From: Dickeya chrysanthemi NCPPB 402
GTDB lineage: Bacteria; Pseudomonadota; Gammaproteobacteria; Enterobacterales; Enterobacteriaceae
NCBI RefSeq assembly: GCF_000406105.1
Contig: NZ_CM001974.1
Span: 171,050-235,049, forward strand
Length of the DNA: 64,000 nucleotides
Direction: 5' to 3'
The notes under the pieces: model-generated
The model's input: the letters and a program-made list of their open reading frames with translations, nothing else
The model's database searches: none
What the model was told of the DNA's origin: nothing
Made by a program: the position numbers and the translations under genes
In this document: positions 46,583 to 54,941 of the stretch, piece by piece
How positions within the stretch are numbered: the stretch's first letter is position 1
Layout: every line of letters starts with the position of its first letter

Positions 46583-47392
46583 TTATTCCGCTTTACTGTT
46601 TTCAAGCACCTTATCGCTACCGAAATATTTCTCTGCCAGCGCTTTTAGCTGACCATTCTGACGCAGTTCCTGTATTTGTTGGTTAAACTCCGCCAGTAAT
46701 TTGTTACCTTCCGTTGTCTTGGCGAACGGGAAGGAAACTTGTTCGTTTGAGATGGGGCTACCGACCAGTTTTAGCGGCAAGTGACGCTTGTTAATTTCTG
46801 CCAGCAGGATGGGGCGCGAGTTAACATAGCCCTGAACACGGTTATTGATAACATCATTAATGGCACCATCGCGGGTTTCATAGGTGCGAATGGTAACGTC
46901 ATTATTGGGGAAAGCGTTGCGCAGATTGGTGACATGAGTAGAACCCAGCACGCCAGATACCGTTTTACCTTTAAGATCATCCAGAGATTGAATGTCTTTG
47001 TTGTTAATACTGGTGACGACTTGCGATGCGTAGTTGAGATACGTGTTGGTGAAGTCGTATTTTTTCTGACGCTCGGTTGTTTTCACAAAATTATTGGCGA
47101 CAGTATCCAATTTTCCTGCTTCCAGTTGGCCCATCAGTCCGCTGAAATCAGCAGTGGTCCAGACTATCCGGTAACCCAGTTTATGGGCGATGGTTTCTGC
47201 CACTTCCACATCATAACCTACTAATGTGCCGTTCTCTTTATAAGAACCCGGAAAACTTTGACCTGTGGTGCCCACGCGTAGCACTTTATTCTGCGTCTCC
47301 GCACTCCTGTTGTTATCGCAGCCAACCAGCATTACGGCGGCAAGAAGAGGGAATAGTGCAGTACTGAGGTAGCGAGTCAATCGGGTTCTCAT
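46583..47392 (-). CDS. Orphan amino acid ABC transporter binding lipoprotein
   Basis: A 269-residue periplasmic solute-binding lipoprotein of the polar amino acid family (SBP family 3). The signal ends in a lipobox LVGC with lipidated C25. It is closely similar to the binding protein at 51355-52134: both share RIGxTGQSxPxSxK-type, VGYDVEVAETIA, TADFSGLMGQLEA, VTIRTYETRDGA and YVNSRPILLAEINKR blocks. It has no permease or ATPase gene beside it, so it may feed the importer encoded 5 kb away, giving that importer a second substrate range. Transcribed away from the dehydrogenase gene; ends about 50 bp from the tRNA terminator on the other strand. Confidence 0.85.
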   Translation of the reverse strand: MRTRLTRYLSTALFPLLAAVMLVGCDNNRSAETQNKVLRVGTTGQSFPGSYKENGTLVGYDVEVAETIAHKLGYRIVWTTADFSGLMGQLEAGKLDTVANNFVKTTERQKKYDFTNTYLNYASQVVTSINNKDIQSLDDLKGKTVSGVLGSTHVTNLRNAFPNNDVTIRTYETRDGAINDVINNRVQGYVNSRPILLAEINKRHLPLKLVGSPISNEQVSFPFAKTTEGNKLLAEFNQQIQELRQNGQLKALAEKYFGSDKVLENSKAE

Positions 47393-47695: not shown

Positions 47696-48769
47696 ATGTT
47701 TGCCATAAAATCCCCTGGGGTCTATCACCATCAGTCAGGTTTGCTGTCACGCATCGGTGAGTTAATTGCACCGTTTTCGGGTCGTATCGCGGTATTAACC
47801 AGCCCGCGAGCTTGGGATGCGGTGCAAAGTAGGCTGTCTGAGAGTTTGACGAAGGCTGACGTACAGTTTGCCGTGCATCTGTTGGAAGGTGAATGTACGC
47901 GCGATGCTATCGCATACCATCGGCATCAAATTGCCCAACAGGGCGTTCATTTTGTGCTGGGTGTCGGCGGTGGCCGAGTGATGGACTGCGCCAAAGCGGT
48001 TGCTGACGGATTGGACAACGGCCAGGTCGCGACTTTGCCGACGATTGCTGCCACCTGTGCTGCCTGGTCTCCTATCAGTATCTTGTATGATGAACGGGGC
48101 GGGCATCAGGGAACGCAGGTATTACAGCGTATGCCTGAGATGGTGCTGGTGGACAGTGATGTGATTGCCCGTAGCGGTGTGCGCTATTTGAAAGCAGGGA
48201 TCGTCGATGCCCTTGCCAAATGGTATGAGTTTCAACCCTATCTGGCGAAAAACAGCGATAATCTGGCGCTGAACCTCAAAATACAGGCGGCGGCGCTCGC
48301 GAAAGACACTTTTGTACAATGGGGCGAACAGGCTTTGCATGACAATGCAGAACAGCGGGTCACACGGGCATTGCAAAAGGTGATCGATGCCAATATTGCC
48401 TTGGCAGGACTGGCTAACAGTATGCGTGATGATTCACCTTCGCCTGGCGTCGCCCACGCGATTCATAATCGCATGACACACCTTCCTGAATTGCATGACT
48501 GGCTACACGGCGAGAAAGTAGGATACGGATTACGGGTACAGTCGCTGTTGGCGCGTGGCGACGGCTCGGTTGATCCCGATTTGCTGGCACACTTACAGCG
48601 TTATGATGCTCCCGCACGTTTACCGGCGTCGGAGGCGCGTTATGTCGAACTGGCAGAAACACTGTCTGAAACATTTAAATTTCCAGAGACGAGTGCCGCT
48701 TTGCTGCCATTTTCGCTCACACCAGAGACAATTCGGCACGCGGTGCTTGCGACGCAGTACAGCGCCTGA
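47696..48769 (+). CDS. Iron-containing alcohol dehydrogenase, GldA/HcxA-like
   Basis: A 357-residue member of the glycerol dehydrogenase-like family. The NAD-binding GVGGGRVMDCAKAVAD lies at about residues 91-106, and the metal ligands of the family are in place: D171 (AGIVDALAKWYE), H254 (AHAIHN) and H271 (LHGEKVGYG). The TIAATCAAWSPIS segment is almost the same as in E. coli HcxA (YbdH), which reduces 2-keto acids to hydroxy acids, so a hydroxycarboxylate dehydrogenase role is more likely than glycerol oxidation. Substrate is unknown. Upstream of the 2SC-type cluster and in the same direction, with the NTF2-like gene between. Confidence 0.75.
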   Translation: MFAIKSPGVYHHQSGLLSRIGELIAPFSGRIAVLTSPRAWDAVQSRLSESLTKADVQFAVHLLEGECTRDAIAYHRHQIAQQGVHFVLGVGGGRVMDCAKAVADGLDNGQVATLPTIAATCAAWSPISILYDERGGHQGTQVLQRMPEMVLVDSDVIARSGVRYLKAGIVDALAKWYEFQPYLAKNSDNLALNLKIQAAALAKDTFVQWGEQALHDNAEQRVTRALQKVIDANIALAGLANSMRDDSPSPGVAHAIHNRMTHLPELHDWLHGEKVGYGLRVQSLLARGDGSVDPDLLAHLQRYDAPARLPASEARYVELAETLSETFKFPETSAALLPFSLTPETIRHAVLATQYSA

Positions 48770-48847
48770 TTTGCTTTTCATCCCCGATTGGAGTATCTCT
48801 TTATTTGAATTTTTATTCACTTAAATTGCATTTAAATGGGGATTGAG

Positions 48848-49183
48848 ATGTCGATTATTGCGCCGGTAGAAAAACAGTTTGCTGCTTATAACGCCCATGA
48901 TTTGGCGGCTTTTTCCGCCTGTTTTCATGAGAACTTCCGGGCTTATCGCATGCCGTCGGAAAGTCCGTCCATAGTGGGGAAAGCCGCGTTGACGGCGTTT
49001 TATCGCGATCACCGTTTCAGTAATCCGGCACTGCGTGCTGAACTGGTGTCCCGTACGGTACTGGGTAACCAGGTTTTTGATCATGAAAAGATTTACGGCC
49101 TCAGCCCTGAGCCTGTCGAAAGTATCGCCGTGTTTGAAGTGAAAGACGGGTTGATTACGACGGCATGGTTCTACTTTGCCTAG
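48848..49183 (+). CDS. NTF2-like (SnoaL-type) small protein
   Basis: A 111-residue protein with the cone fold pattern of NTF2/SnoaL families: VEKQFAAYNAHDLAAFSACF at the start, a central IVGKAALTAFYRDH segment and a last strand FEVKDGLITTAWFYFA. Such proteins are steroid-isomerase-like enzymes or small ligand binders; no substrate can be assigned. The ATG at 48848 follows GGGGA and was preferred to the in-frame ATG at 48836. It lies 78 bp after the dehydrogenase and may share its transcript. Confidence 0.65.
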   Translation: MSIIAPVEKQFAAYNAHDLAAFSACFHENFRAYRMPSESPSIVGKAALTAFYRDHRFSNPALRAELVSRTVLGNQVFDHEKIYGLSPEPVESIAVFEVKDGLITTAWFYFA

Positions 49184-49440: not shown

Positions 49441-50805
49441 ATGGCATCACATCTGATTGATTTTCTTCTTATTGGAAATAATTTTGGCACACCAGAAATG
49501 CGCGCCGTATGGTCAGAGCAAAATCGTCTGACCCGCCAGGTTGACGTGGAAATCGCGTTAGCGCTGGCAGAAGGCGAACTGGGTGTCATTCCGCAGGACG
49601 CGGCCAACACCATTGCTTCCCACGCCAACGCCAGTGCCCTGAATATTGAAGAGATCGCCCAGGATGTGGTGCGCATGAAGCACTCTCTGATGCCGACTAT
49701 CGCCGCGATTCAAAAGCAGTGCGGCGAAGCCGGCGAGTATATCCATTATGGCGTGACCACGCAGGATGTGGTGGATACCGCCACCGTGCTGCAACTGCGT
49801 CAGGCATTCGACATTGTGGTACGTGACACCCGGCTGGTCGCTATTGAACTGAAACGGCTGGCGAAGAAATACCAGTATACGTTGATGACCGGCCGTACCC
49901 ACGGTATGCAGGCGTTGCCGACCACCTTCGGTTTCAAGCTGGCGGTATGGCTGGACGAGTTCGTGCGTCACCTGCAACGCCTGAATGAAATCCGCGATCG
50001 GGTGCTGGTAGGCAATATCAACGGCGCTATCGGCACCTACGCCTCTTTTGGCGAATTGGGGCCGGAAATCGAACGCCACACCCTGACCCGTCTGGGCTTG
50101 AATACCCCGAATATTGGCTGGCAGTCTGCCCGCGACCGCTTCTCGGAGTACGCGTCGGTGGCGGTGCTGGTAAGCGGTACGCTCGGTAAAATCGGCAACG
50201 AGCTGTACAACCTGATGCGTACCGAAATCAACGAAATCGAAGAACCGTTCTCCGAAGGGAAGATCGGCTCTACCACCATGCCGCACAAACGCAATCCGGC
50301 CGCGCTGGAAGGGCTGGCCAGCCTGACGGCGCCGCTGTTCAAGAGCGCCGCCCTGATCCACGAATCGATGAAAGTCGAACACGAACGTGATGCCATGAGC
50401 TGGCGTGCGGAGTGGATAGCCCTGCCGGAAATCAACATCTATCTGTCGGCGCAATTGCAGAACGCGCTTGGTATTCTGCGTGGTATGTCGGTGAATGAAA
50501 AGCAGATGCGTGCCAATCTGGATTTGCAAAACGGCCTGCTGCTGTCGGAAAAGGTGATGTTTGAAATCGGCAAACTGCTTGGTAAGCAAACGGCCCATCA
50601 TCTGGTGTACGAGTGCTCTATGGCGGCATTTGAGCAGAACCGTGAATTTAAAGCGTTGCTGCTGGAACACCCGGTACTGTCGCAGCACCTGACGGCGGAT
50701 ACGCTGGATACCTGGCTGGACCCGGCGAATTACGTTGGCAGTGCGCCGCAAAAAGTGGATGAGGTGATCCAGTACGCGGATAACACCGGCTTGCTGGCCG
50801 AATGA
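49441..50805 (+). CDS. Probable S-(2-succino) lyase (2SL), fumarase/ASL superfamily
   Basis: A 454-residue enzyme of the fumarase/aspartase/adenylosuccinate lyase superfamily. Conserved regions: HYGVTTQDVVDT with H102, TGRTHGMQALPTTFG with H154, and the flexible signature loop GSTTMPHKRNP at residues 276-286. The loop has Thr at 278, where most relatives have Ser (GSSTMPHKRNP), the usual general base. Members release fumarate. It is not PurB: no purine genes are nearby and the downstream genes are an acetyltransferase, an amino acid importer and an M20 deacetylase. A 2SL from Dickeya dadantii that splits N-acetyl-S-(2-succino)cysteine into fumarate and N-acetylcysteine has been reported in such a cluster. 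Function is inferred from context; the family is certain. Confidence 0.8.
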   Translation: MASHLIDFLLIGNNFGTPEMRAVWSEQNRLTRQVDVEIALALAEGELGVIPQDAANTIASHANASALNIEEIAQDVVRMKHSLMPTIAAIQKQCGEAGEYIHYGVTTQDVVDTATVLQLRQAFDIVVRDTRLVAIELKRLAKKYQYTLMTGRTHGMQALPTTFGFKLAVWLDEFVRHLQRLNEIRDRVLVGNINGAIGTYASFGELGPEIERHTLTRLGLNTPNIGWQSARDRFSEYASVAVLVSGTLGKIGNELYNLMRTEINEIEEPFSEGKIGSTTMPHKRNPAALEGLASLTAPLFKSAALIHESMKVEHERDAMSWRAEWIALPEINIYLSAQLQNALGILRGMSVNEKQMRANLDLQNGLLLSEKVMFEIGKLLGKQTAHHLVYECSMAAFEQNREFKALLLEHPVLSQHLTADTLDTWLDPANYVGSAPQKVDEVIQYADNTGLLAE

Positions 50806-50816
50806 CGGGAGACACA

Positions 50817-51341
50817 ATGACTACCGTATTTCGTCAGGCGACGCTTGCCGATGATGACGCGTTTCTGGCGCTGGCGCTGGCCGCCTATGCACCGGTGCGC
50901 GAGCTCGGCATCAAGTTTGACGCCGCCTATGCGGACATCGACATGGTGCGCCGCCATCTGCGCAGCAATGGGGTGTACGTGATGGAGAAAGACGGGCGTC
51001 TGGCCGCGTCTGTCACCCTTCGCTATCCGTGGGGGCCGAATCCCGGTCCTTACGGGTTGCCGCACATCGGCTGGTTCGCCACGCATCCGGATTTTAAACA
51101 GCAAGGGCTGGGTAAACAGATGCTGGACTGGCTGGAGCAGGCGGTGCTGAAAGATCAGTTAAAAGCGCCTGCCGTGACGCTGGGTACCGCCAAACAGCAC
51201 CCCTGGTTGCTGGAGATGTACCGGAAATATGGCTTTCAGGAAGTCGGCCAGGCGGATTTAGGGAAAGGACACCTCACGATTTATATGCGAAAAGTCCTGG
51301 ATCAGGACCTGTATCTCCACTGGGAAAAGAAGCACCCCTAA
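50817..51341 (+). CDS. GNAT N-acetyltransferase, YxeL-like
   Basis: A 174-residue single GNAT domain. The acetyl-CoA loop is visible in WFATHPDFKQQGLGKQMLDWLEQ (QQGLGK), with the GLPHIG strand before and LGTAKQHPWLLEMYRKYGFQEVG after. In the 2SC pathway the first cytoplasmic step is N-acetylation by YxeL, and this gene sits where that enzyme would be. The start MTTVFRQATLADDD at 50817 follows GGGAGAC; an ATG five codons earlier overlaps the lyase stop. The binding-protein gene starts 13 bp downstream. Confidence 0.75.
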   Translation: MTTVFRQATLADDDAFLALALAAYAPVRELGIKFDAAYADIDMVRRHLRSNGVYVMEKDGRLAASVTLRYPWGPNPGPYGLPHIGWFATHPDFKQQGLGKQMLDWLEQAVLKDQLKAPAVTLGTAKQHPWLLEMYRKYGFQEVGQADLGKGHLTIYMRKVLDQDLYLHWEKKHP

Positions 51342-51354
51342 GAGGCGTTATTCG

Positions 51355-52134
51355 ATGACTATGAAAAAAATTATCCTCCCTGTTTTAGCCTTGTCAGCCG
51401 CCATTCTGGTTGCTGGTTGCGATTCTCAGAACAGCAACGAAAAGGTGCTGCGTATCGGCGCCACCGGGCAGAGTTATCCGAGTTCCTTCAAACAGGACAG
51501 CAAGCTGGTCGGGTTTGACGTGGAAGTGGCGGAGACTATCGCCAAGGATCTGAACTATAAAGTCGAGTGGGTGACGGCGGATTTCAGCGGCCTGATGGGG
51601 CAACTGGAAGCGAATAAGCTGGACACTATCGCCAACGTAGTGGCGATTACCCCGGCGCGTCAGGAGAAATACAGCTTCTCCACACCGTACAGCTACTACG
51701 GCAGTCAGATTGTCACGCATAAAGACAATACCGGCATCAATACGCTGGATGACCTGAAAGGGAAAACCGTGGCGGGTGTGCTGGGCTCCAACCACGTCAA
51801 CAACCTGAAAAAAGCCTTCGCCGACGGCAGCGTGACGATTCGCACCTATGAAACCCGCGATGGCGCGATGAGCGATGCGCTGGCCAAGCGTGTTGAAGGT
51901 TACATCAATTCCCGCCCGATCCTGCTGGCGGAAATTAACAAACGCAACCTGCCGTTCAAGATGGTGGGTGAACCGCTGGTAGTCGAGCAGGTCGGTTTCC
52001 CATTCCATAAAGATCAGAAAGGCGACGAACTGCGCAAGAAGTTCGATGACGAACTGACCAAAATGCGCAACGATGGCCGCCTGAAAGCCCTGTCGGTTAA
52101 ATACTTCGGTGAGGATATTACGGCGGGCAAATAA
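51355..52134 (+). CDS. Polar amino acid ABC transporter binding lipoprotein, YxeM-like
   Basis: A 259-residue lipoprotein (lipobox VAGC, lipidated C22) of SBP family 3. The LRIGATGQSYPSSFKQDSKL, then LVGFDVEVAETIAKDL and TADFSGLMGQLEANKLDTIAN segments are typical of cystine/diaminopimelate-type binding proteins. It is the substrate-capture part of the importer encoded by the next two genes; in the inferred pathway the ligand would be S-(2-succino)cysteine or its acetylated form. Very similar to the orphan binding protein at 46583. Confidence 0.85.
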   Translation: MTMKKIILPVLALSAAILVAGCDSQNSNEKVLRIGATGQSYPSSFKQDSKLVGFDVEVAETIAKDLNYKVEWVTADFSGLMGQLEANKLDTIANVVAITPARQEKYSFSTPYSYYGSQIVTHKDNTGINTLDDLKGKTVAGVLGSNHVNNLKKAFADGSVTIRTYETRDGAMSDALAKRVEGYINSRPILLAEINKRNLPFKMVGEPLVVEQVGFPFHKDQKGDELRKKFDDELTKMRNDGRLKALSVKYFGEDITAGK

Positions 52135-52206
52135 CCTTGCTGGCTCACTCAACTTCTGCAACGCCAGCTCTATTGTGGGCTGGCGTTCGCTGTAATGGTA
52201 TGGCTC

Positions 52207-52878
52207 ATGAATATCGATCTTTCCTACCTGTTGAAGGTTTTTCCCCAGGTACTGATGTACTTACCCACCACACTGCTGCTGGCGGTGGTGTCGATGCTGA
52301 TTGCCATCGTTTTAGGCTTGGTGCTGGCACTGGTTCGTGAGAGCCGGTTTGTGGTGGTGTCGAAACTGGTGGAAATCTATATTTCGCTGTTTCGCGGCAT
52401 CCCGTCGCTGGTTCAGTTATTCATCATCTATTTTGGGTTGCCCCAGTTGTTCCCGTCGCTCAACGGCCTGTCTGCCATGACGGCGGCGATTATCGGTTTT
52501 AGCCTGAAAAACTCCGCTTATATGGCGGAAATTTTCCGGGCGGCGCTGGCGTCGGTGGATTTCGGCCAAACCGAAGCGGGTCTGTCGGTGGGAATGAATA
52601 AAGTGCAGATCTACCGCCGTATTGTGCTGCCGCAGGCGATGCTCAATGCGCTGCCGGCGACCGGCAACACCTTTATTTCACTGATTAAAGACACCTCGGT
52701 AGCCTTTGCGCTTGGTGTGTCGGAGTTGTTTGCCGAAGGTAAGATGATTGCGGCCGAATCGCTGCGCTTCTTCGAAACCTTCCTGGTGGTCGGGCTGATT
52801 TACTGGCTGCTCATCGTGGTCTATTCCTGGCTGCAATCTCAGTTGGAGAAGAAACTCAGCCACTCACGGCAGCGTTAA
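52207..52878 (+). CDS. Polar amino acid ABC transporter permease, YxeN-like
   Basis: A 223-residue inner-membrane permease of the HisM/GlnP type with about five helices. It has the EAA loop (EAGLSVGMNKVQIYRRIVLPQAML), which couples to the ATPase, and the N-terminal FPQVLMYLPTTLLLAVVSM helix. Only one permease gene is present, so it should work as a homodimer. The frame opens at 52195; M at 52207 (MNIDLSYLLKVFP) fits the family better, though neither start has a strong ribosome binding site. The ATPase gene follows 9 bp later. Confidence 0.88.
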   Translation: MNIDLSYLLKVFPQVLMYLPTTLLLAVVSMLIAIVLGLVLALVRESRFVVVSKLVEIYISLFRGIPSLVQLFIIYFGLPQLFPSLNGLSAMTAAIIGFSLKNSAYMAEIFRAALASVDFGQTEAGLSVGMNKVQIYRRIVLPQAMLNALPATGNTFISLIKDTSVAFALGVSELFAEGKMIAAESLRFFETFLVVGLIYWLLIVVYSWLQSQLEKKLSHSRQR

Positions 52879-52887
52879 GGAGCCGAC

Positions 52888-53649
52888 ATGATTAGTGTAA
52901 AAAACCTGACTAAACGTTTTGGCGACCAGGTCGTGCTGAACAATATCAGTCTGGATATCGCGCAGGGCGAAGTGGTGGCGATTATCGGGCCTTCCGGCTC
53001 GGGCAAATCCACCCTGTTGCGGTGCCTGAATCTGCTGGAAAAACCGGAGTCCGGCGTTATCGCCATTGGTGAGCAGTCGCTGGATACCCGCCGCTATAGC
53101 GGCAAGGAAGAGTATGCGCTTCGGCGTCAGACGGCGATGGTATTCCAGAACTACAACCTGTTCAAAAACAAAACCGCGCTGGAAAACATCACCGAAGCCC
53201 TGATTGTGGTGAAGAAGATGCCGAAAAAGCGGGCGGACGAGATAGGGTTGTCGCTGCTGGAACTGGTGGGGCTGTTGCCGCAGGCGCATCAATACCCGGT
53301 GACGTTGTCTGGCGGCCAGCAGCAGCGTGTCAGCATTGCTCGTGCGCTGGCGGTGGATCCGAAAGCCATCCTGTTTGACGAACCGACCTCGGCGCTTGAT
53401 CCGGAACGTGTACATGAAGTGCTGCAGGTTATCCAAAAACTGGCGGGACAGAACACCACCATGGTGATCGTGACCCATGAAATGCAGTTCGCCAAAGAAG
53501 TGGCGGACCGGGTGATCTTTATGGCTGATGGACACATCGTGGAGCAGGGACCAGCAGAGAAAGTGATCAGTTTCTCCGATAATCCACAGACCCGTCGTTT
53601 CCTGCGGCAGCTCACCACGATTCAGGAACCGTCAGAGTTCGATATCTGA
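52888..53649 (+). CDS. Polar amino acid ABC transporter ATPase, YxeO-like
   Basis: A 253-residue ABC ATPase. Walker A GPSGSGKS is at residues 34-41, the signature LSGGQQQR at 140-147, Walker B AILFDEPTSALDP just after, and the H-loop in IVTHEMQFAKEVADR. It powers the importer formed with the two preceding genes. AAGGAG lies 8 bp before its ATG. An 80-bp spacer with a GGCCCG/CGGGCC hairpin separates it from the amidohydrolase. Confidence 0.92.
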   Translation: MISVKNLTKRFGDQVVLNNISLDIAQGEVVAIIGPSGSGKSTLLRCLNLLEKPESGVIAIGEQSLDTRRYSGKEEYALRRQTAMVFQNYNLFKNKTALENITEALIVVKKMPKKRADEIGLSLLELVGLLPQAHQYPVTLSGGQQQRVSIARALAVDPKAILFDEPTSALDPERVHEVLQVIQKLAGQNTTMVIVTHEMQFAKEVADRVIFMADGHIVEQGPAEKVISFSDNPQTRRFLRQLTTIQEPSEFDI

Positions 53650-53729
53650 TTAATAACGTATTCACCTGCAGGCCCGGCTCGTCGGGCCAGCCCTATGATG
53701 ACGGGGCAGAAGAAGAGGAGTGACCCTAC

Positions 53730-54890
53730 ATGAAAGAGTATGCTCAGCATGCGCCGTTGGCGCAGTTTATTCAGGCGTTTCGGCACGACTTGCATCAGCA
53801 TCCGGAATTGTCCAATCAGGAGTTTGAAACCACGCGAAAAATTCGCGCCGTACTGGAAAAAGAAGGCATCCGCATCCTTGATCTACCGCTGAAAACCGGT
53901 CTGGTCGCGGAAGTCGGCGGCTTGCAGGATGGCCCGTTGGTGGTGGTACGTTCCGATATTGATGCACTGCCGATTGAAGAAGAGTCCGACGTCGAATTCA
54001 GTTCGAAGAATGCCGGCGTGATGCATGCCTGTGGACACGATTTTCACTCATCGGCGGCGCTGGGCGCGGCGATTTTGCTTAAACGCATCGAGCCGGAACT
54101 GAAAGGTACTGTGCGCATTCTGTTTCAGGCGGCGGAAGAAACCGGATTGGGCGCGCCGGAAGTGATTGCCGTCGGCGCGTTGGACGGTGCGACCGCCATT
54201 TTCGGCATTCATAACGACCCAACGTTACCGGTCGGCGTGATTGGCGGTAAAGACGGCGCACTGACCGCCGGGGTGGACCGTTTCGAAATCAAGATTGCCG
54301 CCAAAGGATGCCACGCCGCTAAACCGCATGAAGGCAACGATCCGATCATTATTCTGGGACAACTGATTTCCGCGGTGCAGACTATCATCAGCCGCACTGT
54401 GCCGTCAGACAACAACGCAGTGGTGTCGATAACTCAGGTACACAGCGGCAGCACCTGGAATGTGATTCCGGACACCGCCTATGTGGAAGGCACTGTGCGT
54501 ACGTTCAGTCAGGAGGTGCGCGATTTGATCGAACAGCGTTTCCGCCAGATTGTCGCCGGTATCGCCAGCACTTTCGGCGCGGAAATCGAATTTATCTGGC
54601 ACGCAGGGCCGCCGTCGGTAGTGAACACGCCGCACTGGGTGGATTTTGCGTTGCAGGTGGCGGATGCCGAAGGGTTTGAGGCGCGCCGCGTTGACGCCAG
54701 CCCGATCGGCGAAGACTTTGCGTTCTACCAGCAAAAGCTGCCGGGCACCTTTATGATGGTGGGTTCCGGCGGCCCGTACGCGCTGCATCACCCCAAATTC
54801 CGCGTGGATGACAAGGCGCTGTTCCCGACAGCGCATTATCTGTATCAACTGGCGAAGCAAAGCCTGGAGCAACTGTCGCAGACGGCCTGA
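53730..54890 (+). CDS. M20 amidohydrolase (N-deacetylase), YxeP-like
   Basis: A 386-residue member of the M20D/amidohydrolase family, metal-dependent N-acyl amino acid hydrolases. Probable metal ligands: C101 and H103 in MHACGHDFHS, E136/E137 in QAAEETGLGAPE, and a later histidine in GIHNDPTLPVG. FEARRVDASPIGEDFAFYQQKLPG near the C-terminus is also typical. In the 2SC pathway the last step is removal of the acetyl group from N-acetylcysteine by YxeP; gene order and family fit. A GAGGAG ribosome binding site precedes the ATG. Last gene of the cluster. Confidence 0.82.
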   Translation: MKEYAQHAPLAQFIQAFRHDLHQHPELSNQEFETTRKIRAVLEKEGIRILDLPLKTGLVAEVGGLQDGPLVVVRSDIDALPIEEESDVEFSSKNAGVMHACGHDFHSSAALGAAILLKRIEPELKGTVRILFQAAEETGLGAPEVIAVGALDGATAIFGIHNDPTLPVGVIGGKDGALTAGVDRFEIKIAAKGCHAAKPHEGNDPIIILGQLISAVQTIISRTVPSDNNAVVSITQVHSGSTWNVIPDTAYVEGTVRTFSQEVRDLIEQRFRQIVAGIASTFGAEIEFIWHAGPPSVVNTPHWVDFALQVADAEGFEARRVDASPIGEDFAFYQQKLPGTFMMVGSGGPYALHHPKFRVDDKALFPTAHYLYQLAKQSLEQLSQTA

Positions 54891-54917: not shown

Positions 54918-54941
54918 ACGGCCACGGTTATCCGTGGCCGT
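54918..54941 (+). terminator. Probable terminator of the 2SC-type operon
   Basis: Perfect 10-bp stem ACGGCCACGG/CCGTGGCCGT with a TTAT loop, 27 bp after the amidohydrolase stop, followed by GTTGTCTCT, a weak T-tract. Confidence 0.7.

Follow-up and report, generated by a model that had tools for sequence, protein, structure and literature searches.

Within a 64,000-nucleotide stretch of the Dickeya chrysanthemi NCPPB 402 genome (contig NZ_CM001974.1, positions 171,050 to 235,049; hereafter the window), the six genes at 49441-54890 very probably form a Dickeya operon that salvages S-(2-succino)cysteine (2SC) by the lyase route. This is a correct rediscovery of an already published system; the new element is our proposal, to which we give an even chance, that YxeQ, encoded elsewhere in the same 4.70 Mb genome, works as an epimerase on 2SC or N-acetyl-2SC, at the succinyl carbon. 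2SC is a stable fumarate-damage product of thiols and a disease marker, and the operon shows, as already published, a possible recovery of cysteine in Dickeya. The six open reading frames all lie on the + strand, with the first two sharing 4 bases and the remaining gaps spanning 9 to 80 bases, and their Pfam domains agree with the preliminary description of this DNA, made from its letters alone, which had listed a lyase, a GNAT acetyltransferase, an importer trio, and an M20 enzyme in one direction:

49441..50805, + strand: S-(2-succino) lyase (2SL) of the fumarase/ASL superfamily, 454 amino acids, Pfam Lyase_1 and ADSL_C
50802..51341, + strand: YxeL/ScmL-like GNAT acetyltransferase, 179 amino acids, Pfam GNAT (Acetyltransf_1), putative 2SC N-acetylation
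51355..52134, + strand: YxeM-like amino-acid ABC binding protein, 259 amino acids, SBP_bac_3
52195..52878, + strand: YxeN-like ABC permease, 227 amino acids, BPD_transp_1
52888..53649, + strand: YxeO-like ABC ATPase, 253 amino acids, ABC_tran
53730..54890, + strand: YxeP/ScmP-like M20 hydrolase, 386 amino acids, Peptidase_M20 and M20_dimer, putative N-acetylcysteine deacetylase

The lyase falls inside a 24-row clade (support 99/98, 36-row tree) together with the 2SL of Enterococcus italicus DSM 15952 (locus L045), the strain assayed by Hillmann et al. (2022, PMC9706529), with the PurB and ArgH of the window's own genome among the 12 rows outside; the comparison with these clades proposed in the preliminary description thus groups the protein with an assayed 2SL. 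The two lyases are 62% identical, and the motifs HYGxTTQD, GRTHGMQALPTTFG, and GSTTMPHKRNP are present in the window protein. The closest named lyases are those of Dickeya undicola and D. oryzae (98% and 97% identity), with lyases at least 91% identical found in 10 of 58 genomes (the window's own, eight other Dickeya at 93–98%, and G022 at 91%) and the top match in the remaining 48 reaching 45% identity.

That the lyase is instead an additional adenylosuccinate lyase, or some other superfamily member with a housekeeping role, and has an unrelated cystine or peptide operon as its neighbours, is highly improbable. The protein does exceed the cut-off of the TIGR00928 purB model (367 vs 326 bits), and a pipeline could therefore label it adenylosuccinate lyase; however, the genome encodes a separate PurB (796 bits vs a cut-off of 446) and a separate ArgH, both outside the lyase clade, and a GNAT accompanies the lyase in 54 of 55 loci. 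The identities PurB, ArgH (59 bits vs 280), PcaB (398 vs 595 and 278 vs 356 bits for the models), and XcbD were each rejected on family scores and the tree, with XcbD, a 3-sulfopropionylcysteine synthase of the same superfamily (NF052536), being the second-best NCBIfam match of the lyase at 449 bits, under its cut-off of 600. The expectation that generic annotation would disguise this operon accordingly stands for the lyase and fails for the importer, with the binding protein at 150 bits against the 312 required by the cystine-transporter model, and the ATPase at 314 bits against the 406 of TcyN.

Of the 102 yxe loci surveyed by Hillmann et al. (PMC9706529), 27 carry 2SL; these authors assayed the enzymes of D. 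dadantii DSM 18020 (UniProt E0SKP1), which belongs to the same genus as the window, and E. italicus, chosen for loci that resemble the Bacillus subtilis operon except for the replacement of yxeK by the 2SL gene. The D. dadantii enzyme converts N-acetyl-2SC to fumarate and N-acetylcysteine, as the preliminary description had stated, and restores the use of 2SC as a sulfur source to a B. subtilis yxeK mutant (PMC9706529). The published loci share with the window the lyase clade, GNAT, ABC importer, M20 enzyme, and gene order, and no operon difference was noticed, with the gene maps of PMC9706529 lying outside this comparison. In L045 the gene order is that of the window except for an additional yxeQ gene in front, and together with the 2SL clade this order bears out the reading of lyase-type 2SC breakdown.

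Compared with the yxe/scm operon of B. subtilis (yxeKLMNOPQ), the window has the GNAT, importer, and M20 genes in common, and its genome also encodes a YxeQ-clade protein; the differences are a lyase in place of the monooxygenase YxeK and an unlinked yxeQ. The operon was previously called complete, which is true of the lyase variant's enzymes and not of the gene set, because yxeQ is absent from it, and YxeK was called an FAD monooxygenase, which is an error, with YxeK/ScmK being dependent on flavin mononucleotide (PMC12757645). The replacement of YxeK by a lyase agrees with the genome: its single NtaA-family match (E 0.001; query an enterobacterial ScmK-like protein, not B. subtilis YxeK) groups with YtnJ (100/100) and is not of the ScmK type, an absence expected if 2SL replaces YxeK.

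In the pathway envisaged, the binding protein, permease, and ATPase would import 2SC or a close relative, and the GNAT would acetylate its amino group, as published for B. subtilis YxeL. The lyase would then perform the beta-elimination of N-acetyl-2SC to fumarate and N-acetylcysteine published for D. dadantii and E. italicus, and the M20 enzyme would release cysteine, as B. subtilis ScmP does by deacetylating N-acetylcysteine (PMC12757645). The GNAT is 48–54% identical to those of five monooxygenase-bearing Bacilli loci (L108, L111-L114) and has no match in PDB at E 0.001, and the top PDB match of the M20 hydrolase is B. subtilis YxeP (1ysj, 404 bits). Plant debris as the origin of the 2SC, offered in the preliminary description, is a guess; PMC9706529 leaves it undecided whether the substrate is endogenous or environmental 2SC.

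Several points weigh against the salvage reading. Both the importer's ligand and the lyase's reaction in the window are predictions, and the orthology of the window lyase with E0SKP1 is indirect, drawn from the 93–98% conservation of the lyase within Dickeya. The tree program flagged long branches among the outgroups, and the published equilibrium of 2SL lies far toward synthesis, with the synthetic direction being faster (PMC9706529). The operon might accordingly handle wider or different S-substituted cysteines, with 2SC one substrate among others, or the lyase might run synthetically, which we consider unlikely. The published enzymes do succinate several small thiols (PMC9706529), and the window has nearby a second binding protein and an iron-type alcohol dehydrogenase (Fe-ADH), the latter elsewhere associated with a ScmK-like monooxygenase. 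Against this, 2SL strongly prefers N-acetyl-2SC, with N-acetylcysteine/N-acetyl-2SC the best substrate among those assayed and glutathione and coenzyme A not used, and it supports growth on 2SC (PMC9706529).

The genes of the set occur together more than expected by chance. The sample comprised 58 places (57 loci and the window) selected by the lyase, many from Pectobacterium or Gilliamella, with counts restricted to the 55 places where the match covers more than 60% of the lyase length (L054, L056, and L057 hold pieces only) and to partner genes at 38% identity or above; counts of binding proteins and ATPases may include paralogues. Beyond the near-universal GNAT, the GNAT, binding protein, permease, and ATPase are found together in 49 of these loci, the M20 gene in 39, and all five partners in 36, with YxeQ in 25 (two more at 36–37% identity), Fe-ADH in 15, the second binding protein in 11, and, in six, both an NtaA-family monooxygenase and an aspartate aminotransferase. 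The sole locus of the 55 without a GNAT, L055, has a lyase 34% identical to that of the window and outside the 2SL clade. Within Dickeya, the operon genes are under purifying selection, in favour of the salvage reading, with ratios of nonsynonymous to synonymous substitution rates (dN/dS) of 0.02–0.11 in six comparisons (L001, L002, L064, L094, L095, and L098).

The gene missing from the operon is found elsewhere in the genome. Its single MmgE/PrpD match lies at G000:C21:688287-689615, flanked by acnB on one side and by a 437-amino-acid gene and lpd on the other, and its product, which is 55% identical to the YxeQ of a Rahnella 2SL locus, is not PrpD (rejected at 19 bits vs a cut-off of 458). 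All nine Dickeya genomes have a YxeQ match (partial in G008, residues 1-280), and YxeQ is likewise found away from 2SL in Pectobacterium (L104, L119), Brenneria (L116), and Pantoea (L117). In a 38-row tree, from which nine near-duplicate rows had been removed beforehand, the unlinked YxeQ belongs to a 31-row clade (support 100/99; 30 of the 31 rows distinct) that also holds the YxeQ of 2SL loci and of seven monooxygenase-carrying Bacilli loci. The rows outside it are two PrpD, a pair of MmgE proteins from a different Dickeya (L099), and single MmgE proteins from L100 (next to a 45% lyase), G299 (L115), and the metagenome-assembled genome bin_230 (L118). A protein of the YxeQ clade is encoded in nine of ten 2SL genomes checked, the exception being bin_230. 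Amongst the Bacilli, nine of 12 matches were examined, with a monooxygenase at the locus in eight of the nine and 2SL in none.

Thiol addition to fumarate creates a new stereocentre. Spontaneous succination would yield two diastereomers, of which 2SL (and YxeK) would take one, and 2SC or N-acetyl-2SC would then need an epimerase acting at its succinyl carbon; we judge the chances that YxeQ/ScmQ fills this role to be evenly balanced. The unlinked Dickeya protein would make both diastereomers of 2SC usable, its gene having left the locus but been kept in the genomes of Dickeya, Pectobacterium, Brenneria, and Pantoea. Among solved structures, the closest relatives of Dickeya YxeQ are 7bra, deposited as 'Bacillus subtilis IRG1' (254 bits), and the iminodisuccinate epimerase 2hp3 (148 bits), with 7bra aligning with members of the YxeQ clade at 254–256 bits; alignments to these solved relatives, rather than a predicted structure, underlie the proposal. 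From its protein length, the B. subtilis protein (bsIRG1) is presumably YxeQ. The active site described for bsIRG1 matches that of iminodisuccinate epimerase, and mammalian H277 and Y318 are not conserved there (PMC7347537). A further member of the MmgE/PrpD family is a methylsuccinate isomerase, and a two-base His/Tyr mechanism has been proposed for it and for iminodisuccinate epimerase; in this family the reaction takes place at the C2 position of a four-carbon dicarboxylate (PMC12290011). YxeQ has this catalytic His and Tyr in common with them, although a different substrate is expected and YxeQ forms its own clade in a tree whose rows exclude those two enzymes. The His/Tyr pair of these epimerases of 2-substituted succinates (H90 and Y137, Dickeya numbering) is kept in all 31 clade rows, as are R88, H142, K190, and K255; the Tyr is absent from both PrpD controls and from two of the five other MmgE proteins, and present in the remaining three.

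Alternatively, the unlinked YxeQ-like protein may stand outside 2SC salvage, as a cis-aconitate decarboxylase or another enzyme of aconitate metabolism, an explanation we regard as doubtful though well short of negligible. The position of the gene beside acnB and the IRG1 name of its top PDB match favour it, as does the faster divergence of YxeQ than of the lyase within Dickeya (71–85% vs 93–98% identity), and the candidate operator of the 2SL operon (below) was not found 5' of yxeQ; the unlinked location beside acnB, divergence, and missing operator all count against an epimerase. However, the clade that unites the YxeQ of 2SL and monooxygenase loci, the epimerase-like active site of bsIRG1, the invariant His/Tyr pair, and the failure to match PrpD each argue against a role in aconitate metabolism, and in the part of PMC7347537 available no assay of bsIRG1 was found, the 'cis-aconitate decarboxylase' label resting on structure and docking.

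A literature search found neither an epimerase proposal for YxeQ nor an assay of it. In PMC9706529, YxeQ (MmgE/PrpD family) carries the label 'unknown function', and the terms 'diastereomer', 'stereo-', and 'epimer-' were looked for in its text and not found; the accessible part of PMC11820211 mentions, on stereochemistry, only possible isomers of a maleic-anhydride product. If YxeQ is an epimerase, the pathway's one 'unknown' gene gains a function, its company with both cleavage chemistries is explained, and the 'cis-aconitate decarboxylase' label is replaced.

Co-occurrence was assessed in 247 genomes of the order (2SL at E <= 1e-125, Dickeya-type YxeQ at E <= 1e-60), with 2SL found in 13, YxeQ in five, and both in four (Fisher p = 2e-5, the kinship of the genomes being ignored). 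The other nine 2SL genomes belong to one genus (g74) with lyases of 74–76% identity, which suggests Gilliamella; in that case YxeQ would lie beside the 2SL operon and score under the threshold. The sole genome with YxeQ and without 2SL, G266, has a locus (L103, 3506-10452) in which GNAT, M20, and YxeQ genes diverge from Fe-ADH, a ScmK-like monooxygenase, and an aspartate aminotransferase, and is the monooxygenase form of the pathway in enterobacteria. The enterobacterial monooxygenases are a sister group of those of Bacilli, 48–52% identical to three of them and apart from YtnJ, and some fall under the 50% YxeK limit of the 2022 survey, which may have hidden them.

The surroundings of the operon include the following features, with hemY, a HemX-type gene, and hemD on the downstream side:

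46583..47392, - strand: second binding protein, SBP_bac_3, divergent and without its own permease, upstream
47696..48769, + strand: Fe-ADH (GldA/HcxA-like), match to the Fe-ADH model, upstream
48836-49183: SnoaL-like open reading frame, upstream of the operon
54918..54941, + strand: terminator-like hairpin 3' of the operon, a pattern match only (15 such sites in the region vs 7.2 expected)

The second binding protein is 58% identical to that of the operon. Fe-ADH is at least 91% identical in four of nine Dickeya genomes, always less than 0.8 kb from the lyase, and absent at that level from the other five, with dN/dS of 0.07–0.14 in three Dickeya comparisons. Elsewhere it is accompanied by a ScmK-like monooxygenase (L020, L021, L031, L033, L034, L041, L103, and L117; as fragments in L057) and mostly by an aspartate aminotransferase too, whereas wherever it occurs in Dickeya, Brenneria, Symbiopectobacterium, and Pectobacterium loci its partner is the second binding protein instead. 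A role for Fe-ADH in the lyase reaction is unsupported, given this pairing with a ScmK-like monooxygenase and a window genome whose only NtaA-family match is YtnJ-like, and we interpret Fe-ADH as an accessory to the 2SL locus at large. Models of defence systems gave no match in the two proteins scanned.

The candidate operator is a perfect palindrome, GATCTANNATAGATC, located, without mismatch, 112–115 bases 5' of the lyase in ten loci of Pectobacterium, Brenneria, and Samsonia (in L003 at 8886) and degenerate in Dickeya. A scan of 36 loci gave 15 matches vs 19 in one shuffle, so that only the fixed position supports it. With up to two mismatches allowed, it was absent from the window and from the yxeQ loci L091, L104, L116, L117, and L119, and an operator shared by the operon and the unlinked yxeQ was therefore rejected.

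In the catalytic flexible loop of the lyase (~50284-50301, approximate), the window has GSTTMPHKRNP and the E. italicus enzyme GSSTMPHKRNP; the D. dadantii enzyme is the slower, with a higher Km for fumarate (PMC9706529), and a tie between the two observations is a guess. The lyase gene is fragmented in L054, L056, and L057 (~9001), from Gilliamella, a Plautia stali stink-bug symbiont, and Serratia rubidaea. The actinobacterium Georgenia (L048, ~9001) has 2SL, GNAT, an importer, and a weak YxeQ match, and its lyase nests among proteobacterial lyases with low support, making horizontal transfer possible. Another Dickeya (G007, L099:3798-11789) has two MmgE/PrpD genes and ABC transporter genes between the 2SL operon and hemY, and L100:6040-8974 encodes a lyase with 45% identity to 2SL, immediately followed by an MmgE/PrpD gene that does not belong to the YxeQ clade, possibly another pair of lyase and epimerase. 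Lastly, a second cluster in the window's genome (L090:3324-8223) comprising the YtnJ-type monooxygenase, a GNAT-like open reading frame, a binding protein, a permease, and an ATPase probably serves other S-alkylcysteines.

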